Shown here in pieces: positions 1 to 30,660 of a DNA stretch of 64,000 nt. The DNA comes from Flammeovirgaceae bacterium 311 (GTDB taxonomy: Bacteria; Bacteroidota; Bacteroidia; Cytophagales; Cyclobacteriaceae), in NCBI GenBank assembly GCA_000597885.1, contig CP004371.1:1054001-1118000 (forward strand), read 5' to 3'. A program made the position numbers and the translations under genes. The notes below the pieces were generated by a model, which worked only from the letters and a program-made list of their open reading frames with translations, was not told where the DNA came from and searched no databases. Each line of letters starts with the position of its first letter. The first letter of the stretch is position 1.

Positions 1-282
1 ACTCACAATGCATAGTCCTCTTCCAATTATTGGTGAACCCAAAGAGCTAATCATTATCAGCGGTACCGCTAAATATGTGATATAATTAATCAATAATCTT
101 CTGCCATTCTTTATCAGTATTATTATTCGAATTGTATTTGATATTAAAATTACTAATCCACTGTAAAGTATCACCAAGTAATGAAGTCCGGAAGGTGTGA
201 ATAAAATGTAAAGCGAATAGCAGATCAGATAAATCATGCTTATGTCCATCAGTCCGATAATGAGCTTTACACTTGATTTCAT
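1..282 (-). CDS. Partial cassette gene, multi-pass membrane protein (5' part)
   Basis: This is the N-terminal part of a small hydrophobic protein cut by the window edge. It is the same sequence as the complete gene at 5599-6015, shifted by 5733 bp. The start ATG (complement 280-282) opens MKSSVKLIIGLMDISM and the product has several hydrophobic helices. An IS5-family element sits 14 bp upstream of the start, in the cassette leader. Function is unknown. Confidence 0.7.
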   Translation of the reverse strand, partial: MKSSVKLIIGLMDISMIYLICYSLYILFTPSGLHYLVILYSGLVILISNTIRIIILIKNGRRLLINYITYLAVPLIMISSLGSPIIGRGLCIVS

Positions 283-296
283 AGTACTGATGCTTA

Positions 297-1128
297 GAAG
301 CTATCTCATAAATGGTTTTAGCAGAATTAGCATGCAAGCCAGCAAAATGAATGCTTTATAGTTCTCTACATTGTATTCATATCTGGTCACACATCTTCTA
401 TAATTGAAGAGCCAGGCGAAGAACCTTTCAACCTTCCATCTTCTTTTATAGCGCCTTAATTTCCTGCCATCTTGCGTCTTTTTTTTGGTTCTGTTGCCCC
501 TATGAGGAGCAATCATTTCAATGCCTTGCTGCCGTAAAGCTTCATCTAAAGGATCTGAATCATAGGCTTTATCACCAATAAGCCGCTCTGGCAGTTCTTC
601 AATAAAGCGCTCCTCTATCACATTCTCCACGAGTTTTACTTCGTGGGGAGATGCTGATTGGATTGAGACAGATAGTATAGTACCACCAGCATCTGTGACT
701 GCCATGATCTTGGTCCCCTTTCCCCGTTTAGTCTTGCCAACAGAAGATCCCCCTTTTTGGCCATGCAGAATGAGCCGTCAATAAAGCACTCGCTCAAATC
801 CACACCGCCTCTTTCATGAAGATCTCTTGCCAGGGTCTCTACCACCTTCTGCATCACTCCCTGTTCTCGCCATTGCTGGAATCTCCTGTGACAGGTTTGA
901 TAAGGAGGATACATGGGAGGCAAATGGCTCCACTGTGCTCCTGTCTTCAAAATCCAAAGTATTCCTTCCAGCACATCTCGCTTATCTCGCCAGGGTCTGC
1001 CTTTACCATCTGTCCTCTTTGGACCATCAGGAATCATGTCCTTTATCACTTCCCACTGCTTATCTGTCAACTTCATGAAAAATAAACAACGAGCTATCAA
1101 TTAAGATCCCTATTTATGAGATGGCTTC
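297..1128 (-). mobile_element. IS5-family insertion sequence (IS427-like), copy 1
   Basis: This is an 832-bp element with imperfect terminal inverted repeats (GAAGCTATCTCATAAAT on the left, GAAGCCATCTCATAAAT on the right) flanked by TA on both sides. It carries a two-frame transposase on the minus strand. It lies between the cassette boundary and the start codon of the cassette gene, so the gene itself is intact. An identical copy lies at 6030-6861. Confidence 0.85.
301..1076 (-). CDS. IS5-family transposase, made by -1 frameshift, copy 1
   Basis: This is a DDE transposase in two overlapping frames. The first frame starts at ATG 1076 ([18 protein letters not shown]) and holds the first catalytic Asp in CFIDGSF. 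The second frame continues [18 protein letters not shown] and the C-terminal [12 protein letters not shown] block. The frames join at an A5G5 run (complement 749-758), where a -1 slip gives [17 protein letters not shown]. The stop codon lies in the left inverted repeat. Programmed frameshifting at such runs is usual in the IS427 group. Confidence 0.85.
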
Positions 1129-1154
1129 TAGTTACGAAAGGGCTTTTTGCTAGT

Positions 1155-1281
1155 GTACAACGTCCATTGAATAAAGCAGCCGCCCATTCACAGACGATTG
1201 CTCAAAGTTCGATAAGTTAGCACCCTGTATTGTCAATGGCAACCATGCTGGCGGGGAGGTTGCTTTATTCTGTTGTTGTGG
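1155..1281 (-). repeat. attC site 1
   Basis: Left core GTACAAC, right core GTTGTGG, with the conserved arms GAATAAAGCA and TGCTTTATTC. This is the 3' end of the cassette carrying the gene at 1324-1662. It is repeated identically at 6888-7014. Confidence 0.93.
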
Positions 1282-1323
1282 GTAGTCTTTTATTTTATTG
1301 ATTATGCTGCAGTATCTAATTTT

Positions 1324-1662
1324 TCAATCCACCGTCTGAATGGTGTCCTTTAAATGCCTTATCATCCAATCATCATTCTTCTTGATAGCATACCCATTAT
1401 AGTCAACCTGCCCTCTATTTCCATAGATTGTCATACTGAATGGTAAAGTGTCCTTCTTTAAATCATTCTCGTTATAGCTGTACTTATAGTTCTTATAGCC
1501 ACCAATTTTAGCCATTATCTCCTTATCATTTTTATGATCCTCTACCATTTCATTCAGAAAATCTGGCGTAGTAACATCAATATAGAATCTAACAATCCAT
1601 GAGCCAATGAATGCCACAGCGCAGGTTACTAATATGTAAATAATGATTTTTTTATTCATCAC
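1324..1662 (-). CDS. Cassette gene: small membrane-anchored protein, copy 1
   Basis: The product has 112 residues, with an N-terminal membrane anchor (about residues 4-25) and a soluble extracytoplasmic part. The C-terminal block FSMTIYGNRGQVDYNGYAI followed by DDWMI loosely recalls Coa1-like folds, but I would not assign that family. The cassette runs from the core GTTGTGGGTA, now broken by IS1182 at 1760, to attC 1. An identical copy is at 7057-7395. Confidence 0.8.
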   Translation of the reverse strand: MMNKKIIIYILVTCAVAFIGSWIVRFYIDVTTPDFLNEMVEDHKNDKEIMAKIGGYKNYKYSYNENDLKKDTLPFSMTIYGNRGQVDYNGYAIKKNDDWMIRHLKDTIQTVD

Positions 1663-1746
1663 GCTTTCTACGATTAAATGCCTCTATTCCACTTTAATAA
1701 ATCTGATATCAAGCCAGTTAGAAGTATGTAGAGGTGCTTTTTTGGA

Positions 1747-1759
1747 TTACCCACAACGT
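1747..1759 (-). repeat. attC site 2, R' fragment left of IS1182 copy 1
   Basis: TACCCACAAC is the inverted core of the neighbouring cassette. It is followed by GT and then the IS. The rest of this attC resumes at 3482. The insertion duplicated ACGT (1756-1759 and 3482-3485). Confidence 0.88.
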
Positions 1760-3481
1760 CAGTCTGTGCGAAAAGCACCGCTGTTAAAACTGTTGAATTT
1801 TCTTCAGTTTAACAACAGGTTTAGCTAAATTAAGGGATGCACCATCTGACGGGAAGAGATCGTAATCAGACTTTTTCAACTAGTCTGGAGGCATCCATAT
1901 CAGCTGATAATCCAGTTAGGGTCATTGATGCTTTTGTAGATGCACTGCCCCTTTTGGAGATGGGTTTCAAGGGAGTGGAGCCCAAAGCTACGGGCAGACC
2001 CTCTTTTGATCCTGCTCATCTTTTGAAGCTCTACCTGTATGGCTACTACAACAGGATCAGATCAAGCAGAAAGCTGGAGACAGAATGCAGAAGGAATCTT
2101 GAAGTGCAGTGGCTGCTACAGGGGCTCTGTCCTGCCTATCATACCATCGCTGACTTCAGGAAAGAGCATCCCCAGCAGCTCAAGCAGGTCTTCAAGGCCT
2201 TTGTAGCTTTTCTTAATGATGCTCACCTGCTTAAGGGCAAATATGTAGCCATAGATGGCACAAAGATCAGAGCAGTGAATTCCAGAAAGAACAACTACAA
2301 CCAAAAGAAGATAGAGCGCCAGCTTAGCTACATACAAGAAAAGATAGATGATTACTTGGATCTGTTGGAAGAGGAAGATCAAAAGGAAGCCCATGATGTC
2401 AAAGGCTCCAGGGCTGACATCGAAGTGGCTCTTAAGCACCTGGAGAAGCGAAAGCTCAAGTACGAGCAGATGGAAAAAGAGGTAGCGCAAAGTGATGACG
2501 GACAGGTATCTACTTCAGATAAAGAAAGCAGAGCCCTAATCCAGCACCATAATGTAGTGGAGGTAAGCTACAACAGCCAGGCAGCAGTCGATAGCAAACA
2601 CTGCCTAATCATCCACTACCAGGCCCTCAACAAGAACGATTCTAAAGCACTAGCTCCTACAGCTCTTGCAGCTAAACAAGCACTAGGAAAGAAAAGAATC
2701 ACTGTACTGGCTGACAAAGCCTATCATAGCGGAGAACAGCTAAGTGAGTGCCTGGACAATGGCATCATCACCATAGTGGCGTATAAAGAACCTGCCAGAG
2801 ATCCTGTGCCAACTGCTGCTTATTATCTGGAGCAGTTCCATTATGATGAAAAGAAAGACCATTATATCTGTCCTAAAGGGGAAGTGCTTTCTAGCAATGG
2901 GTCCTGGTATGAGAAGCATAAGGTAAGCTTGGAAAAGAAAAATGCTTCTCCTTATATGGTCAAGCATTACAAGACCAAAGCCTGCCTTTGCTGTGCAGCC
3001 AAGGCGCTATGCACCATAAATAAGGCAGGAAGACTAATAGAACGCTCCGAGCATGCTGGAGTGATCAAAAGCAACAACCAGAGGGTAATGCGCCAAAAAG
3101 AAGTTTATCGTAAAAGACAAGCTATTGTAGAGCATCCTTTTGGTACCATCAAAAGAGCATGGGGCTACAGCTATACGCTGATGAAGGGACTGAAAAAAGT
3201 GGACGGAGAGCTGGGGCTTATCTTTACCTGCTACAACCTTAGGAGAGCTGTGTCCATCCTCTCGGTGCCTAAGCTGCTCAAACTACTGAAAAGCTACACC
3301 AAGTGGCCAGTGGCTGCTTTGTCTTCACTTACAGCGCTTTACCTGATGCTTTTTAGCTAACTTCTACTTTTTGGAGCGGATAATAGGCAACTTATGAAGC
3401 TGCGCTAGGAGTGGCTGAAAATGGGTCTAATAGGAAGCAAAAGCCCCTTTTTTCAAGAGAGAAGAGTTTTTGCACACTCTG
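1760..3481 (+). mobile_element. IS1182-family insertion sequence, copy 1, inside an attC
   Basis: This is a 1722-bp element with related ends (CAGTCTGTGCGAAAAGC on the left, CAGAGTGTGCAAAAACTC as the inverse of the right end) and a 4-bp ACGT target duplication. It splits an attC two bases after its AAC core. Three further copies of identical length and protein (7493, 9805, 21090) sit at the same attC position. Confidence 0.93.
1837..3360 (+). CDS. IS1182-family transposase, copy 1
   Basis: The protein has 507 residues. It has an N-terminal domain typical of IS1182 (RPSFDPAHLLKLYLYGYYN, residues about 54-72), a first catalytic block KYVAIDGTKIRAVNSRKNNY, a charged linker (about 150-225), ADKAYHSGEQLSE, and a C-terminal cysteine cluster (CLCCAAKALC) followed by EHPFGTIKRAWGY with the last catalytic Glu. 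It is complete, and identical in all four copies, so transposition is recent. Confidence 0.95.
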   Translation: MHHLTGRDRNQTFSTSLEASISADNPVRVIDAFVDALPLLEMGFKGVEPKATGRPSFDPAHLLKLYLYGYYNRIRSSRKLETECRRNLEVQWLLQGLCPAYHTIADFRKEHPQQLKQVFKAFVAFLNDAHLLKGKYVAIDGTKIRAVNSRKNNYNQKKIERQLSYIQEKIDDYLDLLEEEDQKEAHDVKGSRADIEVALKHLEKRKLKYEQMEKEVAQSDDGQVSTSDKESRALIQHHNVVEVSYNSQAAVDSKHCLIIHYQALNKNDSKALAPTALAAKQALGKKRITVLADKAYHSGEQLSECLDNGIITIVAYKEPARDPVPTAAYYLEQFHYDEKKDHYICPKGEVLSSNGSWYEKHKVSLEKKNASPYMVKHYKTKACLCCAAKALCTINKAGRLIERSEHAGVIKSNNQRVMRQKEVYRKRQAIVEHPFGTIKRAWGYSYTLMKGLKKVDGELGLIFTCYNLRRAVSILSVPKLLKLLKSYTKWPVAALSSLTALYLMLFS

Positions 3482-3602
3482 ACGTCCGTTGAATAAAGCA
3501 GCCGCCCATTCACTGCACTTGGCTGAGCGGACGCAAAGCCAGCTGCCTGCATTGTCAATGGCTGAAAGATAGCTGGGCGGTTGCTTTATTCTGTTGTTAG
3601 GT
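3482..3602 (-). repeat. attC site 2, main part right of IS1182 copy 1
   Basis: Starts with the duplicated ACGT and ends in core GTTAGGT. The inner arms CCGCCC and GGGCGG are complementary. Separated from its R' core by 1.7 kb, the site should be unable to fold into a complete attC. Confidence 0.9.
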
Positions 3603-4039
3603 TCGGTTTATCTTATTTTTTTATCAGCCTTCAGTTTCGTCCAGGTACCGTCACGCCATTATTGAAGGTCTTCCTGCGCTACGATTTATATTTAGGTCAC
3701 CAGCTTTTCATTAACCGATTCAGTATTCAGATTCTGGTGCACTTGAATCAAAGCGTCCGGTTAACCGTCCGGTTTAGATCGAGCAAGACCTCCATTATCC
3801 GTCAAGTTTTAAATGTCTAACTTATCCGGCCAACATCGGTGTCCAGTTACCGACTCGTTGTGTCAGCCGAGGTCTTCCCTATTTTTATGAGAATCCGAGA
3901 AGGCGATTGACTTCGATGGGCCCGCTTGCTTCACCAACTAATCAAGGTCCAGCTACCGGTATGATTTTGAGCCAGACGCTGAGAGGGTAATCATTAAAAC
4001 TCTATCCCTTCTACACCAAACGATTTTAATCGAACCTAA
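3599..4039. other. Cassette without a convincing gene (ORF-less 1)
   Basis: The cassette boundaries are intact: core GTTAGGTTCG at 3596-3605 and its inverse CGAACCTAAC at 4031-4040. I find no credible minus-strand gene. The sequence holds pieces (AAGGTCTTCCTGCGCTACG near 3665, GTCCAGTTACCG near 3842) that recur in the gene-less cassettes at 13.4 and 15.3 kb. It could be a decayed gene or a non-coding cassette. Confidence 0.6.
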
Positions 4040-4159
4040 CGTCCATTGAATAAAGCAGGCGACCCGGCACCTGCGGTTCATAGAGTACGATAAGTTAACT
4101 ACCTGCAGCTACAATGGCAACGGAGCTGTGAGGGAGCTTGCTTTATTCTGTTGTTACCT
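4034..4159 (-). repeat. attC site 3
   Basis: Left core ACCTAAC, right core GTTACCT. The interior is nearly identical to the next site (4815-4940), with a single substitution between the conserved arms, although the two cassettes carry unrelated genes. Confidence 0.93.
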
Positions 4160-4804: not shown

Positions 4805-4814
4805 TTTTAATGAC

Positions 4815-4940
4815 AGGTAACGTCCATTGTATAAAGCAGGCGACCCGGCACCTGCGGTTCATAGAGTACGATAAGTTAACTACCTGCAGCTACAATGGCA
4901 ACGGAGCTGTGAGGGAGCTTGCTTTATTCTGTTGTTGTAC
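4815..4940 (-). repeat. attC site 4
   Basis: Left core AGGTAAC, right core GTTGTAC. The left arm reads GTATAAAGCA instead of GAATAAAGCA. The interior matches site 3. Confidence 0.92.
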
Positions 4941-4946
4941 GCTGTA

Positions 4947-5467: not shown

Positions 5468-5592
5468 GTACAACGTCCATTGAATAAAGCAGGCGACCTT
5501 CACCGGCCTTTACATAAAGTTCGCAAAACTGGCTGCCTTCATTGTCAATGGCTGAATGGCAGCTGGGAGCTTGCTTTATTCTGTTGTTGTAC
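5468..5592 (-). repeat. attC site 5
   Basis: Left core GTACAAC, right core GTTGTAC. Typical arms and an interior of the GGCGACC/GGGAGC type. Confidence 0.93.
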
Positions 5593-6887: not shown

Positions 6888-7014
6888 GTACAACGTCCAT
6901 TGAATAAAGCAGCCGCCCATTCACAGACGATTGCTCAAAGTTCGATAAGTTAGCACCCTGTATTGTCAATGGCAACCATGCTGGCGGGGAGGTTGCTTTA
7001 TTCTGTTGTTGTGG
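6888..7014 (-). repeat. attC site 6 (copy of site 1)
   Basis: Left core GTACAAC, right core GTTGTGG. Identical to 1155-1281 as part of the duplicated segment. Confidence 0.93.
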
Positions 7015-7492: not shown

Positions 7493-9214
7493 CAGTCTGT
7501 GCGAAAAGCACCGCTGTTAAAACTGTTGAATTTTCTTCAGTTTAACAACAGGTTTAGCTAAATTAAGGGATGCACCATCTGACGGGAAGAGATCGTAATC
7601 AGACTTTTTCAACTAGTCTGGAGGCATCCATATCAGCTGATAATCCAGTTAGGGTCATTGATGCTTTTGTAGATGCACTGCCCCTTTTGGAGATGGGTTT
7701 CAAGGGAGTGGAGCCCAAAGCTACGGGCAGACCCTCTTTTGATCCTGCTCATCTTTTGAAGCTCTACCTGTATGGCTACTACAACAGGATCAGATCAAGC
7801 AGAAAGCTGGAGACAGAATGCAGAAGGAATCTTGAAGTGCAGTGGCTGCTACAGGGGCTCTGTCCTGCCTATCATACCATCGCTGACTTCAGGAAAGAGC
7901 ATCCCCAGCAGCTCAAGCAGGTCTTCAAGGCCTTTGTAGCTTTTCTTAATGATGCTCACCTGCTTAAGGGCAAATATGTAGCCATAGATGGCACAAAGAT
8001 CAGAGCAGTGAATTCCAGAAAGAACAACTACAACCAAAAGAAGATAGAGCGCCAGCTTAGCTACATACAAGAAAAGATAGATGATTACTTGGATCTGTTG
8101 GAAGAGGAAGATCAAAAGGAAGCCCATGATGTCAAAGGCTCCAGGGCTGACATCGAAGTGGCTCTTAAGCACCTGGAGAAGCGAAAGCTCAAGTACGAGC
8201 AGATGGAAAAAGAGGTAGCGCAAAGTGATGACGGACAGGTATCTACTTCAGATAAAGAAAGCAGAGCCCTAATCCAGCACCATAATGTAGTGGAGGTAAG
8301 CTACAACAGCCAGGCAGCAGTCGATAGCAAACACTGCCTAATCATCCACTACCAGGCCCTCAACAAGAACGATTCTAAAGCACTAGCTCCTACAGCTCTT
8401 GCAGCTAAACAAGCACTAGGAAAGAAAAGAATCACTGTACTGGCTGACAAAGCCTATCATAGCGGAGAACAGCTAAGTGAGTGCCTGGACAATGGCATCA
8501 TCACCATAGTGGCGTATAAAGAACCTGCCAGAGATCCTGTGCCAACTGCTGCTTATTATCTGGAGCAGTTCCATTATGATGAAAAGAAAGACCATTATAT
8601 CTGTCCTAAAGGGGAAGTGCTTTCTAGCAATGGGTCCTGGTATGAGAAGCATAAGGTAAGCTTGGAAAAGAAAAATGCTTCTCCTTATATGGTCAAGCAT
8701 TACAAGACCAAAGCCTGCCTTTGCTGTGCAGCCAAGGCGCTATGCACCATAAATAAGGCAGGAAGACTAATAGAACGCTCCGAGCATGCTGGAGTGATCA
8801 AAAGCAACAACCAGAGGGTAATGCGCCAAAAAGAAGTTTATCGTAAAAGACAAGCTATTGTAGAGCATCCTTTTGGTACCATCAAAAGAGCATGGGGCTA
8901 CAGCTATACGCTGATGAAGGGACTGAAAAAAGTGGACGGAGAGCTGGGGCTTATCTTTACCTGCTACAACCTTAGGAGAGCTGTGTCCATCCTCTCGGTG
9001 CCTAAGCTGCTCAAACTACTGAAAAGCTACACCAAGTGGCCAGTGGCTGCTTTGTCTTCACTTACAGCGCTTTACCTGATGCTTTTTAGCTAACTTCTAC
9101 TTTTTGGAGCGGATAATAGGCAACTTATGAAGCTGCGCTAGGAGTGGCTGAAAATGGGTCTAATAGGAAGCAAAAGCCCCTTTTTTCAAGAGAGAAGAGT
9201 TTTTGCACACTCTG
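7493..9214 (+). mobile_element. IS1182-family insertion sequence, copy 2, inside an attC
   Basis: 1722 bp with ACGT target duplication (7489-7492 and 9215-9218). The left flank is identical to that of copy 1, but the right flank is a different attC, so the duplication end point lies within the IS. Confidence 0.93.
7570..9093 (+). CDS. IS1182-family transposase, copy 2
   Basis: 507 residues, same sequence as the copy at 1837-3360. Intact. Confidence 0.95.
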   Translation: MHHLTGRDRNQTFSTSLEASISADNPVRVIDAFVDALPLLEMGFKGVEPKATGRPSFDPAHLLKLYLYGYYNRIRSSRKLETECRRNLEVQWLLQGLCPAYHTIADFRKEHPQQLKQVFKAFVAFLNDAHLLKGKYVAIDGTKIRAVNSRKNNYNQKKIERQLSYIQEKIDDYLDLLEEEDQKEAHDVKGSRADIEVALKHLEKRKLKYEQMEKEVAQSDDGQVSTSDKESRALIQHHNVVEVSYNSQAAVDSKHCLIIHYQALNKNDSKALAPTALAAKQALGKKRITVLADKAYHSGEQLSECLDNGIITIVAYKEPARDPVPTAAYYLEQFHYDEKKDHYICPKGEVLSSNGSWYEKHKVSLEKKNASPYMVKHYKTKACLCCAAKALCTINKAGRLIERSEHAGVIKSNNQRVMRQKEVYRKRQAIVEHPFGTIKRAWGYSYTLMKGLKKVDGELGLIFTCYNLRRAVSILSVPKLLKLLKSYTKWPVAALSSLTALYLMLFS

Positions 9215-9332
9215 ACGTCCATTGAATAAAGCAGGGGCTGCTCACCGCTGCGTCTACATGGACGATAAGTTAGATGTTTTTAGATCAATGGCAAAGAGCT
9301 GTTACAGCCCTTGCTTTATTCTGTTGTTGTGG
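9215..9332 (-). repeat. attC site 7, main part right of IS1182 copy 2
   Basis: Inner arms GGGGCTG and CAGCCC pair. Ends in core GTTGTGG. The interior closely resembles the site at 25954-26077. Confidence 0.9.
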
Positions 9333-9804: not shown

Positions 9805-11526
9805 CAGTCTGTGCGAAAAGCACCGCTGTTAAAACTGTTGAATTTTCTTCAGTTTAACAACAGGTTTAGCTAAATTAAGGGATGCACCATCTGACGGGAA
9901 GAGATCGTAATCAGACTTTTTCAACTAGTCTGGAGGCATCCATATCAGCTGATAATCCAGTTAGGGTCATTGATGCTTTTGTAGATGCACTGCCCCTTTT
10001 GGAGATGGGTTTCAAGGGAGTGGAGCCCAAAGCTACGGGCAGACCCTCTTTTGATCCTGCTCATCTTTTGAAGCTCTACCTGTATGGCTACTACAACAGG
10101 ATCAGATCAAGCAGAAAGCTGGAGACAGAATGCAGAAGGAATCTTGAAGTGCAGTGGCTGCTACAGGGGCTCTGTCCTGCCTATCATACCATCGCTGACT
10201 TCAGGAAAGAGCATCCCCAGCAGCTCAAGCAGGTCTTCAAGGCCTTTGTAGCTTTTCTTAATGATGCTCACCTGCTTAAGGGCAAATATGTAGCCATAGA
10301 TGGCACAAAGATCAGAGCAGTGAATTCCAGAAAGAACAACTACAACCAAAAGAAGATAGAGCGCCAGCTTAGCTACATACAAGAAAAGATAGATGATTAC
10401 TTGGATCTGTTGGAAGAGGAAGATCAAAAGGAAGCCCATGATGTCAAAGGCTCCAGGGCTGACATCGAAGTGGCTCTTAAGCACCTGGAGAAGCGAAAGC
10501 TCAAGTACGAGCAGATGGAAAAAGAGGTAGCGCAAAGTGATGACGGACAGGTATCTACTTCAGATAAAGAAAGCAGAGCCCTAATCCAGCACCATAATGT
10601 AGTGGAGGTAAGCTACAACAGCCAGGCAGCAGTCGATAGCAAACACTGCCTAATCATCCACTACCAGGCCCTCAACAAGAACGATTCTAAAGCACTAGCT
10701 CCTACAGCTCTTGCAGCTAAACAAGCACTAGGAAAGAAAAGAATCACTGTACTGGCTGACAAAGCCTATCATAGCGGAGAACAGCTAAGTGAGTGCCTGG
10801 ACAATGGCATCATCACCATAGTGGCGTATAAAGAACCTGCCAGAGATCCTGTGCCAACTGCTGCTTATTATCTGGAGCAGTTCCATTATGATGAAAAGAA
10901 AGACCATTATATCTGTCCTAAAGGGGAAGTGCTTTCTAGCAATGGGTCCTGGTATGAGAAGCATAAGGTAAGCTTGGAAAAGAAAAATGCTTCTCCTTAT
11001 ATGGTCAAGCATTACAAGACCAAAGCCTGCCTTTGCTGTGCAGCCAAGGCGCTATGCACCATAAATAAGGCAGGAAGACTAATAGAACGCTCCGAGCATG
11101 CTGGAGTGATCAAAAGCAACAACCAGAGGGTAATGCGCCAAAAAGAAGTTTATCGTAAAAGACAAGCTATTGTAGAGCATCCTTTTGGTACCATCAAAAG
11201 AGCATGGGGCTACAGCTATACGCTGATGAAGGGACTGAAAAAAGTGGACGGAGAGCTGGGGCTTATCTTTACCTGCTACAACCTTAGGAGAGCTGTGTCC
11301 ATCCTCTCGGTGCCTAAGCTGCTCAAACTACTGAAAAGCTACACCAAGTGGCCAGTGGCTGCTTTGTCTTCACTTACAGCGCTTTACCTGATGCTTTTTA
11401 GCTAACTTCTACTTTTTGGAGCGGATAATAGGCAACTTATGAAGCTGCGCTAGGAGTGGCTGAAAATGGGTCTAATAGGAAGCAAAAGCCCCTTTTTTCA
11501 AGAGAGAAGAGTTTTTGCACACTCTG
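9805..11526 (+). mobile_element. IS1182-family insertion sequence, copy 3, inside an attC
   Basis: 1722 bp with ACGT duplicated at 9801-9804 and 11527-11530. Both flanks differ from those of copies 1 and 4, so this is an independent insertion at the same attC position. Confidence 0.93.
9882..11405 (+). CDS. IS1182-family transposase, copy 3
   Basis: 507 residues, same sequence as the copy at 1837-3360. Intact. Confidence 0.95.
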   Translation: MHHLTGRDRNQTFSTSLEASISADNPVRVIDAFVDALPLLEMGFKGVEPKATGRPSFDPAHLLKLYLYGYYNRIRSSRKLETECRRNLEVQWLLQGLCPAYHTIADFRKEHPQQLKQVFKAFVAFLNDAHLLKGKYVAIDGTKIRAVNSRKNNYNQKKIERQLSYIQEKIDDYLDLLEEEDQKEAHDVKGSRADIEVALKHLEKRKLKYEQMEKEVAQSDDGQVSTSDKESRALIQHHNVVEVSYNSQAAVDSKHCLIIHYQALNKNDSKALAPTALAAKQALGKKRITVLADKAYHSGEQLSECLDNGIITIVAYKEPARDPVPTAAYYLEQFHYDEKKDHYICPKGEVLSSNGSWYEKHKVSLEKKNASPYMVKHYKTKACLCCAAKALCTINKAGRLIERSEHAGVIKSNNQRVMRQKEVYRKRQAIVEHPFGTIKRAWGYSYTLMKGLKKVDGELGLIFTCYNLRRAVSILSVPKLLKLLKSYTKWPVAALSSLTALYLMLFS

Positions 11527-11646
11527 ACGTCCATTGAATAAAGCAGGCGCCCGTCAACCTGCGGTTCTTAGAGTACGATAAGTTAGCACCTTGCAGGGTC
11601 AATGGCAACGGAGCTGTGGGGCGATTGCTTTATTCTGTTGTTAGCC
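11527..11646 (-). repeat. attC site 8, main part right of IS1182 copy 3
   Basis: Inner arms CGCCC and GGGCG pair. Ends in core GTTAGCC. Confidence 0.9.
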
Positions 11647-11981: not shown

Positions 11982-12105
11982 GGCTAACGTCCATTGAATA
12001 AAGCAGGGGATGCTTGCCGCCTCTTGCTGATCCGAAGCAAAGTATTGATTTTGTAGGCAGATGGCAAAGAGCTCTGACAGCCCTTGCTTTATTCTGTTGT
12101 TGGGG
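11982..12105 (-). repeat. attC site 9
   Basis: Left core GGCTAAC, right core GTTGGGG. Variant interior (GGGGATG, with CAGCCC on the right). Confidence 0.92.
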
Positions 12106-12683: not shown

Positions 12684-12808
12684 CCCCAACGTCCATTGAA
12701 TATAGCAGATGCCCTTCACTGCCGTTTGATGAAAGTACGCAAAATTTGCTACCTACATTGTCAATGGCTGAACGCTCTTGGGGCATTTGCTTTATTCTGT
12801 TGTTGTGC
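12684..12808 (-). repeat. attC site 10
   Basis: Left core CCCCAAC, right core GTTGTGC. The left arm has a substitution (GAATATAGCA). The inner arms TGCCC and GGGCA pair. Confidence 0.92.
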
Positions 12809-13209: not shown

Positions 13210-13335
13210 GCACAACGTTCCGTTGAATAAAGCAGGCGACCTTCACCGGCCTCTGCTTAAAGTACGAAAAGCTAACCTTCTGTACAAACAATGGCTTAAT
13301 GAGTCGGGGGAGCTTGTTTTATTCTGTTGTTAGGT
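13210..13335 (-). repeat. attC site 11
   Basis: Left core GCACAAC, right core GTTAGGT. The left spacer has one extra base (AACGTTCCGTTGAATAAAG) and the right arm reads TGTTTTATTC, so this copy is slightly degenerate. Confidence 0.9.
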
Positions 13336-13776: not shown

Positions 13777-13900
13777 CCTAACGTCCATTGAATAAAGCAG
13801 GCGACCTTCACTGGCCTTTGCTGAACGTTCGCAAAGGTAGACAATAGCATTGTCAATGGCTGAAAGAACTGTGGGAGCTTGCATTATTCTGTTGTTAGGC
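13777..13900 (-). repeat. attC site 12
   Basis: Left core ACCTAAC, right core GTTAGGC. The right arm is TGCATTATTC, a mismatch in the outer stem. Confidence 0.92.
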
Positions 13901-14440: not shown

Positions 14441-14564
14441 GCCTAACGTCCGTTGAATAAAGCAGGCGACCTTCACTGCCGCTAATTGAAAGTACGAAAA
14501 GCTATCGGCCTGCACAATAATGGCTGAACGAGCTGGGGGAGCTTGCATTATTCTGTTGTTGGTG
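14441..14564 (-). repeat. attC site 13
   Basis: Left core GCCTAAC, right core GTTGGTG. The left spacer is GTCCGTT, and the right arm is TGCATTATTC as in site 12. Confidence 0.92.
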
Positions 14565-15084: not shown

Positions 15085-15210
15085 CACCAACGTCCATTGA
15101 ATAAAGCAGGCGACCATTCACTGACCTTGGCTGTGCCCACGCAAAGCTTGCTGCCTGCACTGTCAATGACTGAAAGATAGCGGGGCGGTTGCTTTATTCT
15201 GTTGTTGGGC
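15085..15210 (-). repeat. attC site 14
   Basis: Left core CACCAAC, right core GTTGGGC. Left interior GGCGACC, right interior GGGCGG. Confidence 0.92.
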
Positions 15211-15636: not shown

Positions 15637-15761
15637 GCCCAACGTCCATTGAATAAAGCAGATGCCCTTCACCGGCCTCTGCTGAAAGTACGAAATGCTA
15701 ACGGCCTGCACAAGCGATGGCGGAATGCTGTTGGGGCATTTGCTTTATTCTGTTGTTACCT
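15637..15761 (-). repeat. attC site 15
   Basis: Left core GCCCAAC, right core GTTACCT. Inner arms TGCCC and GGGCA pair. Confidence 0.93.
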
Positions 15762-16335: not shown

Positions 16336-16460
16336 AGGTAACGTCCATTGAATAGAGCAGGCGACCTTCACCGGCCTTTGCCGATCGTACGCAAAGGTAG
16401 ACAATAGCATTGTCAATGGCTGAATGCGCTGGGGGAGCTTGCTTTATTCTGTTGTTACTT
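16336..16460 (-). repeat. attC site 16
   Basis: Left core AGGTAAC, right core GTTACTT. The left arm reads GAATAGAGCA. The interior is nearly the same as in the sites at 13777 and 25356. Confidence 0.92.
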
Positions 16461-17055: not shown

Positions 17056-17180
17056 AAGTAACGTCCATTGAATAAAGCAGATGCCCTTCACTGCCTTTTG
17101 CTGAAAGTACGCAAAAATTGCTTCCTGCATTGTCAATGGCTGAAAGCTCTTGGGGCATTTGCTTTATTCTGTTGTTAGCT
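17056..17180 (-). repeat. attC site 17
   Basis: Left core AAGTAAC, right core GTTAGCT. Inner arms TGCCC and GGGCA pair. Confidence 0.93.
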
Positions 17181-17762: not shown

Positions 17763-17888
17763 AGCTAACGTCCATTGAATAAAGCAGACACCCATTCACT
17801 GACCATTGCTGAAAGGACGCAAAATTTGCTTTCTGCATTATCAATGGCTGAATACTGGTGGGGTGATTGCTTTATTCTGTTGTTAGGC
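17763..17888 (-). repeat. attC site 18
   Basis: Left core AGCTAAC, right core GTTAGGC. Inner arms CACCC and GGGTG pair, an arm class seen only here. Confidence 0.92.
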
Positions 17889-18593: not shown

Positions 18594-18715
18594 GCCTAAC
18601 GGGCGCGGCACCTAGCAGGCGCCACAGCTGTAGTTGGTTTATGGCAGTTAAGGTAAGTGTTTTGCAGGAAGCTAACAAGAGGCAGCTGGGCGCTTGCTTG
18701 GTGCTTGTGTTAGGC
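18594..18715 (-). repeat. attC site 19, divergent type
   Basis: The core pair CCTAAC and GTTAGGC is conserved, but the arms are GGCACC (left) and GGTGC (right) with AGCAGGCGCC and GGCGCTTGCT inside, not GAATAAAGCA and TGCTTTATTC. The flanking cassettes still show matched private cores. This looks like a cassette end from another attC lineage. Confidence 0.85.
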
Positions 18716-19041: not shown

Positions 19042-19166
19042 GCCTAACGTCCGTTGAATAAAGCAGGCGACCTTCACCGGCTTTTGCTGTGCCCACGCAA
19101 AGGTAGCCTTTTGCTTTGTCAATGGCTGAATGCTGGCTGGGAGCTTGCTTTATTCTGTTGTTATTT
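19042..19166 (-). repeat. attC site 20
   Basis: Left core GCCTAAC, right core GTTATTT. Typical arms. Confidence 0.93.
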
Positions 19167-19639: not shown

Positions 19640-19764
19640 AAATAACGTCCATTGAATAATGCAGGGGCTGCTCACCGCCGTTTGATGATTGTACGCAAAG
19701 GTAGCTTTCTGCATTGTCAATGGCTGAAAGCGCTATGGGCATTTGCTTTATTCTGTTGTTGTGC
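19640..19764 (-). repeat. attC site 21, chimeric interior
   Basis: Left core AAATAAC, right core GTTGTGC. The left interior (GGGGCTGCTCACC) belongs to the class that normally ends in CAGCCC, but the right interior is GGGCAT. The inner stem is therefore mispaired. The left arm is GAATAATGCA. Confidence 0.9.
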
Positions 19765-20348: not shown

Positions 20349-20475
20349 GCACAACGTCCATTGAATAAAGCAGGCGACCATTCACCAGCCCTTGCTGAGC
20401 GTACGCAAAGATAGCTGCCTGCATTGTCAATGGCTGAATGGCAGCTGGGGAGCTTGCTTTATTCTGTTGTTGGCA
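20349..20475 (-). repeat. attC site 22
   Basis: Left core GCACAAC, right core GTTGGCA. Typical arms. Confidence 0.93.
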
Positions 20476-21089: not shown

Positions 21090-22811
21090 CAGAGTGTGCA
21101 AAAACTCTTCTCTCTTGAAAAAAGGGGCTTTTGCTTCCTATTAGACCCATTTTCAGCCACTCCTAGCGCAGCTTCATAAGTTGCCTATTATCCGCTCCAA
21201 AAAGTAGAAGTTAGCTAAAAAGCATCAGGTAAAGCGCTGTAAGTGAAGACAAAGCAGCCACTGGCCACTTGGTGTAGCTTTTCAGTAGTTTGAGCAGCTT
21301 AGGCACCGAGAGGATGGACACAGCTCTCCTAAGGTTGTAGCAGGTAAAGATAAGCCCCAGCTCTCCGTCCACTTTTTTCAGTCCCTTCATCAGCGTATAG
21401 CTGTAGCCCCATGCTCTTTTGATGGTACCAAAAGGATGCTCTACAATAGCTTGTCTTTTACGATAAACTTCTTTTTGGCGCATTACCCTCTGGTTGTTGC
21501 TTTTGATCACTCCAGCATGCTCGGAGCGTTCTATTAGTCTTCCTGCCTTATTTATGGTGCATAGCGCCTTGGCTGCACAGCAAAGGCAGGCTTTGGTCTT
21601 GTAATGCTTGACCATATAAGGAGAAGCATTTTTCTTTTCCAAGCTTACCTTATGCTTCTCATACCAGGACCCATTGCTAGAAAGCACTTCCCCTTTAGGA
21701 CAGATATAATGGTCTTTCTTTTCATCATAATGGAACTGCTCCAGATAATAAGCAGCAGTTGGCACAGGATCTCTGGCAGGTTCTTTATACGCCACTATGG
21801 TGATGATGCCATTGTCCAGGCACTCACTTAGCTGTTCTCCGCTATGATAGGCTTTGTCAGCCAGTACAGTGATTCTTTTCTTTCCTAGTGCTTGTTTAGC
21901 TGCAAGAGCTGTAGGAGCTAGTGCTTTAGAATCGTTCTTGTTGAGGGCCTGGTAGTGGATGATTAGGCAGTGTTTGCTATCGACTGCTGCCTGGCTGTTG
22001 TAGCTTACCTCCACTACATTATGGTGCTGGATTAGGGCTCTGCTTTCTTTATCTGAAGTAGATACCTGTCCGTCATCACTTTGCGCTACCTCTTTTTCCA
22101 TCTGCTCGTACTTGAGCTTTCGCTTCTCCAGGTGCTTAAGAGCCACTTCGATGTCAGCCCTGGAGCCTTTGACATCATGGGCTTCCTTTTGATCTTCCTC
22201 TTCCAACAGATCCAAGTAATCATCTATCTTTTCTTGTATGTAGCTAAGCTGGCGCTCTATCTTCTTTTGGTTGTAGTTGTTCTTTCTGGAATTCACTGCT
22301 CTGATCTTTGTGCCATCTATGGCTACATATTTGCCCTTAAGCAGGTGAGCATCATTAAGAAAAGCTACAAAGGCCTTGAAGACCTGCTTGAGCTGCTGGG
22401 GATGCTCTTTCCTGAAGTCAGCGATGGTATGATAGGCAGGACAGAGCCCCTGTAGCAGCCACTGCACTTCAAGATTCCTTCTGCATTCTGTCTCCAGCTT
22501 TCTGCTTGATCTGATCCTGTTGTAGTAGCCATACAGGTAGAGCTTCAAAAGATGAGCAGGATCAAAAGAGGGTCTGCCCGTAGCTTTGGGCTCCACTCCC
22601 TTGAAACCCATCTCCAAAAGGGGCAGTGCATCTACAAAAGCATCAATGACCCTAACTGGATTATCAGCTGATATGGATGCCTCCAGACTAGTTGAAAAAG
22701 TCTGATTACGATCTCTTCCCGTCAGATGGTGCATCCCTTAATTTAGCTAAACCTGTTGTTAAACTGAAGAAAATTCAACAGTTTTAACAGCGGTGCTTTT
22801 CGCACAGACTG
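21090..22811 (-). mobile_element. IS1182-family insertion sequence, copy 4 (inverted), inside an attC
   Basis: 1722 bp, opposite orientation to the other copies but in the same attC position, with ACGT duplicated at 21086-21089 and 22812-22815. ACGT is its own complement, which explains why both orientations occur. Confidence 0.93.
21211..22734 (-). CDS. IS1182-family transposase, copy 4
   Basis: 507 residues, same sequence as the copy at 1837-3360. Intact and on the minus strand. Confidence 0.95.
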   Translation of the reverse strand: MHHLTGRDRNQTFSTSLEASISADNPVRVIDAFVDALPLLEMGFKGVEPKATGRPSFDPAHLLKLYLYGYYNRIRSSRKLETECRRNLEVQWLLQGLCPAYHTIADFRKEHPQQLKQVFKAFVAFLNDAHLLKGKYVAIDGTKIRAVNSRKNNYNQKKIERQLSYIQEKIDDYLDLLEEEDQKEAHDVKGSRADIEVALKHLEKRKLKYEQMEKEVAQSDDGQVSTSDKESRALIQHHNVVEVSYNSQAAVDSKHCLIIHYQALNKNDSKALAPTALAAKQALGKKRITVLADKAYHSGEQLSECLDNGIITIVAYKEPARDPVPTAAYYLEQFHYDEKKDHYICPKGEVLSSNGSWYEKHKVSLEKKNASPYMVKHYKTKACLCCAAKALCTINKAGRLIERSEHAGVIKSNNQRVMRQKEVYRKRQAIVEHPFGTIKRAWGYSYTLMKGLKKVDGELGLIFTCYNLRRAVSILSVPKLLKLLKSYTKWPVAALSSLTALYLMLFS

Positions 22812-22931
22812 ACGTCCATTGAATAAAGCAGATGCCCTGCACTGCCCTTTGCCGAATGTACGCAAAAGTTGCTTTCCGCATTGTCAATGGCTGAATGGGC
22901 TGGGGGCATTTGCTTTATTCTGTTGTTGGCA
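22812..22931 (-). repeat. attC site 23, main part right of IS1182 copy 4
   Basis: Inner arms TGCCC and GGGCA pair. Ends in core GTTGGCA. Confidence 0.9.
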
Positions 22932-23335: not shown

Positions 23336-23460
23336 TGCCAACGTCCATTGAATAAAGCAGCCGACCATTCACAGGGCTCAACTGAGCGTACGCAAAAATA
23401 GACTTTTGCATTGTCAATGGCTGAATGCTGCGGGGCGGTTGCTTTATTCTGTTGTTAGGT
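23336..23460 (-). repeat. attC site 24
   Basis: Left core TGCCAAC, right core GTTAGGT. Typical arms. Confidence 0.93.
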
Positions 23461-23943: not shown

Positions 23944-24065
23944 ACCTAACGTCCAATGAATAAAGCAGGGGCTGCTCACCGCCGCCGCTCAATGTACGTC
24001 TGGTTAATTTTTATTGTAAGATAGCGGAGAGCTCTTACAGCCCTTGTTTTATTCTGTTGTTATGG
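23944..24065 (-). repeat. attC site 25
   Basis: Left core ACCTAAC, right core GTTATGG. Inner arms GGGCTG and CAGCCC pair. The left spacer is GTCCAAT. Confidence 0.92.
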
Positions 24066-24651: not shown

Positions 24652-24778
24652 CCATAACGTCCATTGAATAAAGCAGCCGACCATTCACTGGCCTCTGCCT
24701 AAAGTTCGATAAGGTAGCACCCTGCATTGTCAATGGCAACCAAGCAAGCGGGGCGGTTGCTTTATTCTGTTGTTGGGC
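24652..24778 (-). repeat. attC site 26
   Basis: Left core CCATAAC, right core GTTGGGC. Typical arms. Confidence 0.93.
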
Positions 24779-25355: not shown

Positions 25356-25480
25356 GCCCAACGTCCATTAAATAAAGCAGGCGACCTTCACCGGCCTTTG
25401 CTGATCGTACGCAAAGGTAGACAATAGCATTGTCAATGGCTGAATGAGCTGGGGGCGCTTGCTTTATTCTGTTGTTGGTA
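25356..25480 (-). repeat. attC site 27
   Basis: Left core GCCCAAC, right core GTTGGTA. The left arm reads AAATAAAGCA. Confidence 0.92.
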
Positions 25481-25488
25481 GCCGTATA

Positions 25489-25929: not shown

Positions 25930-25953
25930 AGCTTAATGCTGCGATTATATGGC

Positions 25954-26077
25954 TACCAACGTCCATTGAATAAAACAGGGGCTGCTCACCGCTGCGTCTA
26001 CATGGACGATAAGTTAGAGGTTTTGTAGTTCAGTGGCAAAGAGCTCTTACAGCCCTTGCTTTATTCTGTTGTTGGTA
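25954..26077 (-). repeat. attC site 28
   Basis: Left core TACCAAC, right core GTTGGTA. The left arm reads GAATAAAACA. Inner arms GGGCTG and CAGCCC pair. Confidence 0.92.
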
Positions 26078-26146
26078 ACAGGTTATTTTTTTCTTTTCGA
26101 GCAAATTCTTCTAGGTAACCAAAAATTGCGGAAACCGCTGGCCTCT

Positions 26147-27001: not shown

Positions 27002-27130
27002 TGGACTTAATTATTTCTTCACAACAGGAAATTTCATTATTCAATATCCACCATCTATAGAAGCTTTTGATTCCTGGGTTCAGCCCCTAAATAATTATAA
27101 ATCATTGGTAGAGCTAACGATTTCACTTGT

Positions 27131-27255
27131 TACCAACGTCCATTGAATAAAGCAGATGCCCTTCGCTGCCCTTTGCTGAAAGTACGCAAAAATTGCTTTC
27201 TGCACTGTCAATGGCTGAATGCTGTTGGGGCATTTGCTTTATTCTGTTGTTGGGA
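27131..27255 (-). repeat. attC site 29
   Basis: Left core TACCAAC, right core GTTGGGA. Inner arms TGCCC and GGGCA pair. Confidence 0.93.
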
Positions 27256-27264
27256 GTAGTTTTT

Positions 27265-27849: not shown

Positions 27850-27860
27850 TTTTGAATTAC

Positions 27861-27985
27861 TCCCAACGTCCATTGAATAAAGCAGGCGCCCCGGCACCAG
27901 CGGTTGTTAAAGTACGAAAGATTCTGATTTAGTAGAACAGCTGCTACGAAGCTGTGAGGGCGATTGCTTTATTCTGTTGTTATGG
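27861..27985 (-). repeat. attC site 30
   Basis: Left core TCCCAAC, right core GTTATGG. Inner arms CGCCC and GGGCG pair. Confidence 0.93.
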
Positions 27986-27996
27986 GCAGATTATTT

Positions 27997-28515: not shown

Positions 28516-28530
28516 GCCCTTTTTATTTGC

Positions 28531-28655
28531 CCATAACGTCCGTTGAATAAAGCAGATGCCCTTCACCGGCTTTTGATGAATGTACGAAAGGCCCTACTTC
28601 TGCACAACCAATGGCTGAACGCACGGGGGGCATTTGCTTTATTCTGTTGTTGGGG
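28531..28655 (-). repeat. attC site 31 (attC of the recombinase-proximal cassette)
   Basis: Left core CCATAAC, right core GTTGGGG. Inner arms TGCCC and GGGCA pair. Its private core GTTGGGGCC matches the bases that follow the recombinase stop codon at 29113. Confidence 0.94.
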
Positions 28656-28665
28656 CCAGTATATT

Positions 28666-29112
28666 TTATTTAATTTCCAACGTCGTCCTGCCAAACCAAC
28701 CAGGAGAAGTCACTTCCTGGGATATTTTCATTTGATGTCCACCTTGAAAATCCAGGTAAAGGTCAAAGCCCTGCGAAACAGTAAATCCTACAAATGATTT
28801 ATTTAGAACTTTATCAATAGGGTATTTTTCATTAATCGAGTCTATGAATGGATATTCAAATTCATCGGCATCTGATTCATTTTCTAAATTCATTAATGGC
28901 TCCTCGGGCCCTTCTTTTATGAATAGAACACCATCGTCAAAGAATATGCGCATCCAGATATCGAACTTCAAATAGAGGACAAATACCTCTTCAGCAATTT
29001 CTTTATTGTACAAGTACGATTGTATTCTTAGGTCAGTCAGCGTAAGTGAGAGCCTCTCATTCAATAATTCTCTGCCGTAGGTGTCGTACATTTCTAGTTT
29101 TATTGGCCCCAA
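28666..29112 (-). CDS. First cassette gene, directly behind the recombinase
   Basis: The product has 148 residues if the TTG at 29112 is used; that TTG immediately follows the recombinase TAG and is the TT(G) of the cassette boundary. An in-frame ATG at 29091 (MYDTYGRELLNERLSL) would give 141 residues. The protein is soluble and acidic (EPLMNLENESDADEFEY) with a strand-rich C-terminus (FVGFTVSQGFDLYLDF). The family is unknown. Zero spacing to the recombinase gene suggests co-transcription. Confidence 0.75.
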   Translation of the reverse strand: MGPIKLEMYDTYGRELLNERLSLTLTDLRIQSYLYNKEIAEEVFVLYLKFDIWMRIFFDDGVLFIKEGPEEPLMNLENESDADEFEYPFIDSINEKYPIDKVLNKSFVGFTVSQGFDLYLDFQGGHQMKISQEVTSPGWFGRTTLEIK

Positions 29113-29158
29113 CTAGTAGCTAATCGCGGTATCAACTATGTATTTAGTCATTATCGCG
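29105..29158 (-). other. Putative attI-like primary insertion site at the recombinase 3' end
   Basis: On the minus strand the sequence reads ATTAGCTACTAG then TTGGGGCC. The G of the stop codon TAG plus the following TT form the GTT crossover triplet of the first cassette, whose other end is GGCCCCAAC at 28649-28657. Within the coding end there are two direct repeats TWATCGCG on the plus strand (29121-29128 and 29151-29158), spaced 30 bp apart, possible recombinase arm sites. The assignment as attI is an inference. Confidence 0.65.
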
Positions 29159-30660
29159 TTTATGCGCATTTTAGCGTGAGAGGTATATAACGCCATGGGC
29201 TCTTTTAAGAAGTCTGGTTTTTGGTTTGGAAACATAGGATATTTATTGTTTAGATCCAACCTGTCCAGGGGACTCTGTATGTTCTGAACAGCCTGCTGGC
29301 TTACATGGGTATAGATTTCGGTGGTTTTGCTGCTGTTGTGGCCCAGTAAGCTCTGGATGTAACGCAAATCGGTACCTCCTTCCAGTAAATGGGTGGCGAA
29401 ACTGTGCCGTAGTGAATGCAGAGTAAATGGCTTGTCTATTTTTGCTTTGTGCAGGGCTTGCTTAAAGACACTCCTTAAGCTGGAATCGGTATATTGATCG
29501 CCCCACTGCCCCTCAAAAACCCAGTGCTGTGGCTGGTACGCCTCAAGATACGCCCTAAGAAGCTGGCAAAGCACGTTGGACAAAATCGTCATCCTGTCTT
29601 TTTTACCCTTTGCATACCTGATGCGGATCTGCTTTCTTTCCCAGTCAATATCAGTTAATTTTAAATTTATGAGCTCTCCTGCACGCAAACCGCTAGAATA
29701 AAGAAGCGAAAGCATGCACCGGTGTTTCAGATTACCCGAGGCTGATAAAACTGCACGAAGTTCCTCCTGGCTCATTACCTTTGGTAATTGCTTGTCCCGC
29801 TTTACCCGCACTAAATCCACCCCATCCAATTTTTTTCCCTGTACATGCAACATATAGAATTTGATGGCACTTACCGATTGGTTAACGGATGCCGCCTTTA
29901 CATTACCCTGTGCCATCCAGCGACTGTGATATAGGTTGATGGTATGTGACTGCAGGTCTTTAAGGGTTTGCTCCTCCGTGATACCCAGTTGCCTGATAAA
30001 CCTGCCCATTAAACTGTAATAGGTATTCAAGGTGCTGCTGCTATAGCCCTTCCCATACATGGCATCCAAAAATGGATCTGCATCAATGCTACCCCAGTCC
30101 CTGCTGCCACCTGTAATCAGCTGCTTTTGGGTGAGAAAATCAATTGGGTATAACCTCGGATCTAACCTTAAACGGGCATGGGGCTGCAACAGGCGTACCA
30201 CCTCCAGTAATGGTGTTTCCTCCTGCTGTACATACCAGCACTTTCCTCTGGTATAGTAGTGGGCGTACGGCTTCTGCTTCATCAGGTTTGCCAGCAGCTG
30301 TTGATAACGAAAGCGGATCAGCAGAATGTATTTACCTTCCAGCTCCCCCGGAATCAGCTGTACCAATGGTAAACTCGCTCCTTCAGGCATTTCTTTTTTT
30401 ACCCCTTTTACACCGGCCTGCAGGGCATAACGCATTAATGCAGAGGTGTCCAGCTTTGCTTTTCCTCTGATAATCTCCTTTAACTTCAGAAGTGGCTCTT
30501 TCTTATAATGCGTTACCAGGCATTTGTAGGTCTTGCTGAACTTAAGAAGATCCTGCTGCTGGCACAGGTAGCTGAACAGTGCTTTATCCTGCTGAAAACT
30601 TAGCCTGACAAAGGTCTTTCCGCCGTGCAGCAATGGAGATAAGTAGATGACTGGCAACAT
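29113..30660 (-). CDS. Tyrosine recombinase, probable cassette integrase of the array
   Basis: The product has 515 residues. The catalytic domain is complete: Arg326 in SSGLRAGEL, Lys in AKGKKDR (351-355), HSLRHS (His415, Arg418), LLGH (His441) and the nucleophile Tyr450 in TTEIYTHV. A SAM-like core-binding domain lies at about 194-290. The tail IQSPLDRLDL resembles IntI and related Xer-type enzymes, but the IntI-specific insertion between the Lys and His-x-x-Arg blocks is absent. Residues 1-190 hold two similar modules (15-65 and 107-158, each with a KCL/KCW turn). It reads toward the cassettes and its stop codon abuts the first one. Acting on these attC sites is inferred from position. Confidence 0.88.
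   Translation of the reverse strand: MLPVIYLSPLLHGGKTFVRLSFQQDKALFSYLCQQQDLLKFSKTYKCLVTHYKKEPLLKLKEIIRGKAKLDTSALMRYALQAGVKGVKKEMPEGASLPLVQLIPGELEGKYILLIRFRYQQLLANLMKQKPYAHYYTRGKCWYVQQEETPLLEVVRLLQPHARLRLDPRLYPIDFLTQKQLITGGSRDWGSIDADPFLDAMYGKGYSSSTLNTYYSLMGRFIRQLGITEEQTLKDLQSHTINLYHSRWMAQGNVKAASVNQSVSAIKFYMLHVQGKKLDGVDLVRVKRDKQLPKVMSQEELRAVLSASGNLKHRCMLSLLYSSGLRAGELINLKLTDIDWERKQIRIRYAKGKKDRMTILSNVLCQLLRAYLEAYQPQHWVFEGQWGDQYTDSSLRSVFKQALHKAKIDKPFTLHSLRHSFATHLLEGGTDLRYIQSLLGHNSSKTTEIYTHVSQQAVQNIQSPLDRLDLNNKYPMFPNQKPDFLKEPMALYTSHAKMRINAIMTKYIVDTAISY

Follow-up and report, generated by a model that had tools for sequence, protein, structure and literature searches.

In the passages of Ghaly 2022 (PMC9668308) drawn on here, the IntI-specific domain (I2, or 'additional domain') is a defining feature of integron integrases, is needed for recombination and is required by IntegronFinder. 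Smyshlyaev 2021 (PMC8138268), in the excerpted text, reports that this insertion is not fully conserved in an integron-like subgroup, yet essential for function, and the corresponding part of Escudero 2016 (PMC4792948) treats the origin of attC sites and I2 as a chicken-egg paradox, namely, how either could be selected before the other. The available portion of the IntegronFinder 2.0 account names one complete integron in Bacteroidetes proper (Salinibacter ruber), after earlier In0 elements. The subject of the present analysis is a cassette array in a stretch of 64,000 nucleotides from Flammeovirgaceae bacterium 311 (hereafter the window; contig CP004371.1, positions 1054001-1118000 of a 6.67-Mb single-contig genome) that lies directly behind the gene for a tyrosine recombinase, P0001. 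As judged from sequence comparison, this locus is very probably a chromosomal integron-type array, with an integrase, the adjacent recombinase, that belongs to a large family devoid of the IntI insertion. The best reading is that integron integrases devoid of the IntI-specific domain make up a class of their own, and a widespread one.

The cassette array and its adjacent recombinase

A search with R1, a covariance model built from 26 window sites, which replaced an arm scan by fuzzy regular expressions that overlooked sites, recovers on the minus strand (1159-28651) the 31 attC-type sites counted in the preliminary description, 30 of them strong and one degenerate. Four weak plus-strand hits (25.7-30.3 bits) mirror minus-strand sites at the same places. 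Numbered away from the recombinase, the minus-strand sites are attC 1 at 28535-28651 (cassette 1 spans 28537-29112), attC 2 to 8 at 27865-27981, 27135-27251, 25958-26073, 25360-25476, 24656-24774, 23948-24061 and 23340-23456, attC 9 at 22811-22927, attC 10 to 12 at 20353-20471, 19644-19760 and 19046-19162, the degenerate attC 13 at 18598-18711 (35 bits), attC 14 to 18 at 17767-17884, 17060-17176, 16340-16456, 15641-15757 and 15089-15206, attC 19 to 23 at 14445-14560, 13780-13896, 13214-13331, 12688-12804 and 11986-12101, attC 24 and 25 at 11526-11642 and 9214-9328, attC 26 to 29 at 6892-7010, 5472-5588, 4819-4936 and 4038-4155, attC 30 at 3481-3598 and attC 31 at 1159-1277; in attC 9, 24, 25 and 30, an insertion sequence (IS) of the IS1182 family is inserted at the 3' box. 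Beyond attC 31 the array continues leftward, with 14 further R1 sites in the 20 kb left of the window (L001); the adjoining 20 kb (L002) is free of them, and the whole array comprises 45 sites over 40.3 kb (genome 1042780-1083112), extending 11.2 kb past the window.

With variations, a site consists of a private arm followed by AACAACAGAATAAAGCA ... TGCTTTATTCAAYGGACGTT and the private arm of the next cassette; as in integrons, the sites have conserved AAC/GTT ends and a foldable stem. Sliding the partner lowers pairing in the stem from 92.3% of the cells to 33-44%, and double, compensatory changes are seen in 27 cells against a shuffled mean of 6.1. When four sites are folded as single-stranded DNA, three beat their shuffled versions (z -2.0 to -3.5), the exception having z -0.2.

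The cassettes have matching inverted private ends, as previously described: all seven bases match in 22 of the 31 window cassettes and at least six in 27, the remaining four (nos. 10, 25, 26 and 31) being interrupted at the start by an IS1182-family element, beyond which the displaced start arm, read by eye, matches at 7/7 bases in cassettes 25, 26 and 31. In 25 of the 31 cassettes (cassette 10 being counted by its minus-strand IS transposase), the cassette strand carries the longest open reading frame (ORF) starting with ATG, which reaches at least 60 amino acids in 23; a longer ORF of at least 60 amino acids on the opposite strand is found in three cassettes only, in each case a plus-strand IS transposase. 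Thus, the common direction of the coding cassettes stands, whereas the earlier count of 27 becomes 23.

The array begins at the stop codon of the recombinase gene (29113-30660, minus strand, 515 amino acids), in agreement with the description of this gene as flush with the first cassette; the crossover G of that cassette is the G of the TAG stop codon. The presumed attI would comprise the last 60 nt of the gene up to this G (29113-29172, minus strand), with the G|TT crossover between 29113 and 29112. Comparison with the homologous locus of a related genome (G001) reveals 90% identity over the 60 nt up to the stop codon and 33% over the next 60 nt. Among nine recombinase genes from the genus and its nearest relative, P0001 included, eight have AG|TT and a cassette arm 0 to ~120 nt past the stop codon, at most loci preceded by an inverted repeat, and at the ninth (L041), the contig ends after 44 nt. 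The end of conservation at G|TT past the stop codon is the pattern to be expected of an attI site.

The recombinase contains a core-binding (SAM-like) domain (residues 197-278, 29827-30072, Pfam PF13495) and a catalytic domain (residues 295-455, 29296-29778, PF00589), both on the minus strand, and all catalytic residues are present, namely R326, K351/K354 (two candidate lysines), H415, R418, H441 and Y450. The lysine motif is 64 amino acids from HxxR, about 42 short of IntI, and some 190 residues are added at the N-terminus; both traits had been noted before. This spacing is 64-69 in all 76 family rows (33 from this genome and relatives, 43 named), 106-108 in 17 canonical IntI rows and 69-73 in eight of ten Xer rows, the other two being unmeasurable; the 26 other rows divide into 15 with 63-73, nine with 106-108, one (L180) with 87 and one without a value. 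None of the relevant NCBIfam profiles is matched above its cut-off: P0001 scores 203.8 bits with NF040815 (XerA; cut-off 220), which is the best score, 200.5 with TIGR02249 (IntI; 265), and 177.0 and 177.4 with TIGR02224 and TIGR02225 (XerC and XerD; 335 and 330); one relative (L109) is just above the NF040815 cut-off with 220.8 bits. The ratio of nonsynonymous to synonymous substitution rates (dN/dS) of 0.068 between P0001 and its G001 homologue indicates that the recombinase is under purifying selection. No relatives of P0001 were found in viral contigs. Another genome of the same order (G040) yields eight scattered hits to P0001, with a 326-amino acid frame and six within 0.2 bits of one another, as might be expected if the homologue were mobile.

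Occurrence in relatives and in other genera

In a survey of 59 genomes (run with stricter filters, 62 candidates scored per genome), R1 sites are detected in four, this one included, and these are the same four that encode a P0001 homologue at E <= 1e-190 (Fisher p 2.2e-6). The preliminary description had proposed searching other Bacteroidota genomes for homologues adjacent to sites with the same arms: R1 sites are found directly 3' of five homologues in G001 and G002 (90, 69, 50, 45 and 40% identity). No canonical IntI is found in this genome (G000), G001, G002 or G029 at E <= 1e-40. A canonical IntI scores above the cut-off in one of the 59 genomes (G027), outside the four with R1 sites. As far as these sequence data go, the array is most likely served by the recombinase that is not a standard IntI.

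Beyond these relatives, site detection relies on an arm-plus-hairpin test of our own because R1 is nearly blank on the 19 named loci. The test demands G|TT between 60 nt before and 320 nt after the stop codon of the recombinase gene, recurrence of the seven bases after TT, reverse-complemented, before AAC downstream, a hairpin, and then another GTT, and results are counted for loci with a 3' flank of 1,500 bp or more; because it needs seven private bases, it may miss short-armed canonical IntI cassettes. Exact arms are found in 7 of 22 loci from other genera, in 4 of 24 named loci (L106-L149) and in 8 of 18 fresh loci, with 4 more fresh loci at one mismatch. The fresh set includes 20 high-scoring, non-random loci from a phylum-wide profile search, 18 of which have enough flank, and these are not all independent since L205 and L210 apparently share one cassette. 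Two further loci, L108 and L132, pass with exact arms, but have a shorter flank and are left out of the counts; a single genome (G003) contributes three loci of the first set, some genomes are possibly conspecific with named ones, and the sets may overlap. Among decoy genes, 1 of 364 passes, in a canonical-integron locus (L180) with an integrase that falls in the IntI clade, and random positions, a weaker control in which each decoy has a single GTT, give 0 of 4000 and 0 of 4000.

A count of hairpins resembling attC, made without reference to arms, gives 47 on the sense strand and 3 on the other in 387 kb of 3' flank; the 564 kb of 5' flank contain 2 on either strand and a shuffled control of 555 kb contains 4, and 24 of 75 loci have one or more; in the fresh set, 13 and 3 are found in 178 kb of 3' flank, and 0 and 0 in 94 kb of 5' flank. 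Cassette chains occur in Flavobacterium enshiense DK69 (L129, eight cassettes) and Bacteroidetes bacterium GWF2_41_31 (L149, five), each with one mismatch in the first arm. The preliminary description of a development in this lineage is too narrow: the arrangement is also found, with other attC sequences behind distant homologues, in other genera, families and classes of the phylum, with single candidates outside Bacteroidota in a Spirochaetota metagenome-assembled genome (MAG; L132) and, with one mismatch, in Paenibacillus (L130), although MAG contigs are possibly misbinned. Several candidates were set aside, namely, L128 (Chitinophaga), L124 and L150, which have one mismatch and look weak, and L019 and L026, which by eye seem to be followed by a gene for a single-strand-binding protein instead of a cassette; the wider locus of L026 (L098) contains five attC-like hairpins. 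In a Peregrinibacteria MAG (L155), a one-mismatch cassette-like unit with a 10-bp stem lies on the 5', divergent side of an insert-less recombinase, which is the canonical orientation.

Several results weigh against the integrase reading. Exact arms are missing from 35 of 46 first-set loci, from all 28 of the L150-L185 loci with enough flank, and from 10 of 18 fresh loci, 6 of which lack a cassette even with one mismatch allowed; the one-mismatch background on the 5' side amounts to 4 of 80 loci, none exact; R1 gives two weak hits in the 19 named loci; and next to the three G029 homologues, where 44 to 623 bp of flank are available, R1 detects nothing. Some of these recombinases may do other work. 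A profile of the family matches 97 of 296 genomes of the phylum at E <= 1e-65 (six candidates scored per genome); these matches are candidates, not all with arrays. Canonical IntI is above the cut-off in 84 of the 296 and, among the places listed, G095 is the only one in the class of the window genome. Each kind of integrase may have its own share of the phylum, although some genomes outside this class have both.

Possible origin and proposed mode of action of the recombinase

Phylogenetic analysis included 114 of 129 rows gathered by similarity to P0001, with small Xer sampling: ten Xer rows, two from E. coli and eight classed as Xer because they match P0001 less strongly. Fifteen fragmentary or contig-end rows were dropped (L021, L111, L114, L115, L118, L131, L133, L134, L138, L140, L142, L145, L153, L158 and L179), and never among the 129 were L128 and ten of L151-L173, which lack the catalytic pattern, and L011, which has no frame. 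A branch with 100/100 support separates the insert-less and IntI rows from all ten Xer rows and a Bacilli row (L178), so that the tree puts the enzyme nearer to IntI than to XerC/D. The IntI-labelled rows form one clade (26 of 27, support 100/100; the other, L177, is IntI by the Lys-HxxR distance measure and falls elsewhere) without any Bacteroidota insert-less row inside, and this clade is nested among insert-less rows, in a tree for which the bootstrap had not settled. The approximately unbiased (AU) test does not reject a separate clade of the 58 Bacteroidota insert-less rows (p 0.299). XerA-type enzymes may belong among the tree rows. The proposal that an Xer-type enzyme independently took over the cassettes is supported in one part, an integrase other than standard IntI, whereas Xer identity and an independent change stay conjectural. 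Because of the tree placement together with the AU result, an ancestral enzyme without the insertion and an independent origin both stay open, and takeover by an ordinary XerC/D is the least favoured. It is possible, at somewhat less than an even chance, that cassette recombination predates the IntI insertion, with canonical IntI arising within a broad second class found in Bacteroidota and some further phyla, that of the insert-less integrases, many of which would carry HARP/DRD-like modules that recognise folded DNA.

The AlphaFold model of P0001 (mean predicted local distance difference test score 83 for the whole protein and 86 for the N-terminal 190 residues) contains at the N-terminus two similar beta-beta-alpha-beta-beta-alpha modules. 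From AlphaFold 2 models and fold comparison, these are tentatively assigned as HARP/DRD-like (module 1, residues 1-81, 30418-30660; module 2, residues 96-168, 30157-30375; both minus strand). The XPB domain is a damage-recognition domain (DRD), and HARP binds forked DNA. By VIA-align, the N-terminal model scores best against eIF1/aIF1 and archaeal XPB, with a tie near Z 6; the closest alignment is to the XPB N-terminal domain (Z 6.0, root-mean-square deviation (rmsd) 2.0 over 56), and the SMARCAL1 HARP domain (4o66) follows with Z 3.7 and rmsd 2.0 over 49. A Z-score near 6 may reflect merely a common arrangement, and Foldseek finds no match to the N-terminal model at E < 0.001. Further support comes from L132, the single module of which reaches the Pfam HARP model (PF07443) with 28.7 bits, above the cut-off of 25, and from three others that match weakly; DUF5710 matches 5 of 22 members compared with 4 of 22 for HARP, but more weakly (best E 0.0034). 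P0001 itself does not reach the HARP model. The cassette-bearing L050 (285 amino acids) and L219 (290 amino acids) are too short for the module, which is therefore not generally required. On balance, the modelled N-terminal modules tentatively resemble HARP/XPB DNA-recognition domains.

Under the proposed mechanism, the recombinase would carry out attI x attC recombination at G|TT and thereby integrate circular cassettes; the entry point would be the 3' end of its own gene, with new cassettes joining behind it in the same direction as the gene. Less firmly, the attC substrate may be a folded single strand, and the N-terminal modules might stand in for the IntI insertion by aiding recognition of this strand. 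The strongest competitor, itself rather unlikely, is that the cassettes are indeed served by this enzyme, with attC being recombined as ordinary double-stranded DNA in the manner of Xer/dif and the hairpin just keeping the arms as inverted binding sites. P0001 lacks the insertion like Xer, its closest NCBIfam profile is of the XerA type, and in the window sites, a conserved stem position shows a 1x1 A.C mismatch instead of a clear extrahelical base; XerCD, as stated in part of Escudero 2016 (PMC4792948), are without structural adaptations for single-strand substrates. However, the sites combine strict strand polarity, an asymmetric unpaired segment (4 vs 7 nt, in an imposed structure) and a variable, covarying inner stem, as in single-strand attC, and the extra modules resemble DNA-recognition domains.

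That the recombinase is a true IntI that secondarily lost the insertion appears improbable: the C-terminal SPLxRL motif common to P0001 and IntI4 (2A3V) and the location on the IntI side of the tree would fit, but the fully supported clade of 26 IntI rows excludes the Bacteroidota insert-less rows, and the insertion is absent from every one of the 76 family rows. A relic array that now changes by ordinary duplication and homologous recombination alone has still less to recommend it and is quite improbable. A block of four cassettes is duplicated exactly (cassettes 26-29 = 31-34, identical order, 5,733-bp spacing, window 1 to ~9214 plus 1.7 kb to the left), and IS elements sit in four window sites, but single cassettes recur at separate places within the array (no. 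22 = no. 45; no. 18 = no. 42), a 96% identical copy of cassette 22 (= 45) is the first cassette behind a 45%-identical recombinase in G001, and the recombinase is under purifying selection. Hardly probable at all is a cluster of attC sites lacking an integrase (CALIN), in which the recombinase would be a bystander and the cassettes would depend on a canonical IntI that acts in trans or has meanwhile disappeared. The IntI genes in the phylum and the other site clusters of this genome without an adjacent P0001 homologue would speak for this reading, but it is countered by the lack of canonical IntI, at the threshold given above, in G000, G001, G002 and G029 and by the same recombinase-cassette junction recurring in many genera. 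These additional R1 clusters are located at genome 1183-1258 kb, 2097-2116 kb, 5660-5679 kb and 6260-6279 kb, with at least 123 hits genome-wide (150 of 2,997 candidates scored); of nine Pfam integrase hits in the genome, one (a 190-amino acid frame at 1231521) lies within the 1183-1258 kb cluster and none within the others.

Cassette contents and comparison with known systems

Most of the cargo is of unknown kind. Among 20 cassette ORFs scanned (window 5602-29091), clear Pfam hits are limited to Yip1, a ParE toxin, an Imm9 immunity protein and a GNAT acetyltransferase; two further hits are weak. The IS1182-family element is present in five copies, at 1760-3481, 7493-9214 and 9805-11526 on the plus strand, at 21090-22811 on the minus strand (the far end of this copy being placed by the length of the others) and at -7216 to -5495 relative to the window (L001). 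It encodes a transposase of 507 amino acids (354 bits for the copy scanned). All five copies are inserted at one point, the ACGT of the attC 3' box (GGACGTT), in both orientations, with an apparent 4-bp ACGT duplication, and the element seems to target attC sites.

No prior description of an insert-less cassette integrase was found in the literature searched, which consisted mainly of abstracts, with preprints and most subscription papers outside its range. The system is a new integron variant rather than an integron in the strict sense because the IntI-specific domain was looked for and is absent. Arrays served by insert-less enzymes offer a way round the chicken-egg paradox, which, as posed in the part of Escudero 2016 (PMC4792948) used here, would be answered if the ancestral scenario is true; in that scenario, such arrays would have been overlooked because integron finders require the IntI domain. 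The integron census of the phylum changes as well, with 97 of 296 genomes containing a candidate family-profile match, against one complete integron named for Bacteroidetes proper in the portion of the IntegronFinder 2.0 account cited above.

Among known systems, the sedentary chromosomal integron shares with this array the stemmed attC-type sites, private complementary ends, G|TT crossover, mostly one-directional ORFs and an insertion point by the integrase gene; here, however, the IntI insertion is missing from the integrase, N-terminal modules are present, and the gene runs in the direction of the cassettes, with the presumed attI at its 3' end. The recombinase core of P0001 aligns with canonical IntI (IntI4, PDB 2A3V) with Z 19.6 and rmsd 3.1 over 254 residues, and the SPLxRL tails are similar, whereas the ~42 amino acids missing between Lys and HxxR, the score below the TIGR02249 cut-off and the separate place in the tree set it apart. 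XerA-type enzymes (NF040815) likewise have no insertion and give P0001 its best NCBIfam score, but P0001 differs by its N-terminal modules and the cassette array behind its gene. The integron-like subgroup, in the excerpted text of Smyshlyaev 2021 (PMC8138268), includes no described insert-less enzyme with an array. According to the passages of Ghaly 2022 (PMC9668308) drawn on here, archaeal integrons resemble this locus in having attI downstream of the integrase gene, unlike it in that archaeal IntI have the IntI-specific domain, and Spirochaetota integrons share the reverse orientation, their IntI being typical.

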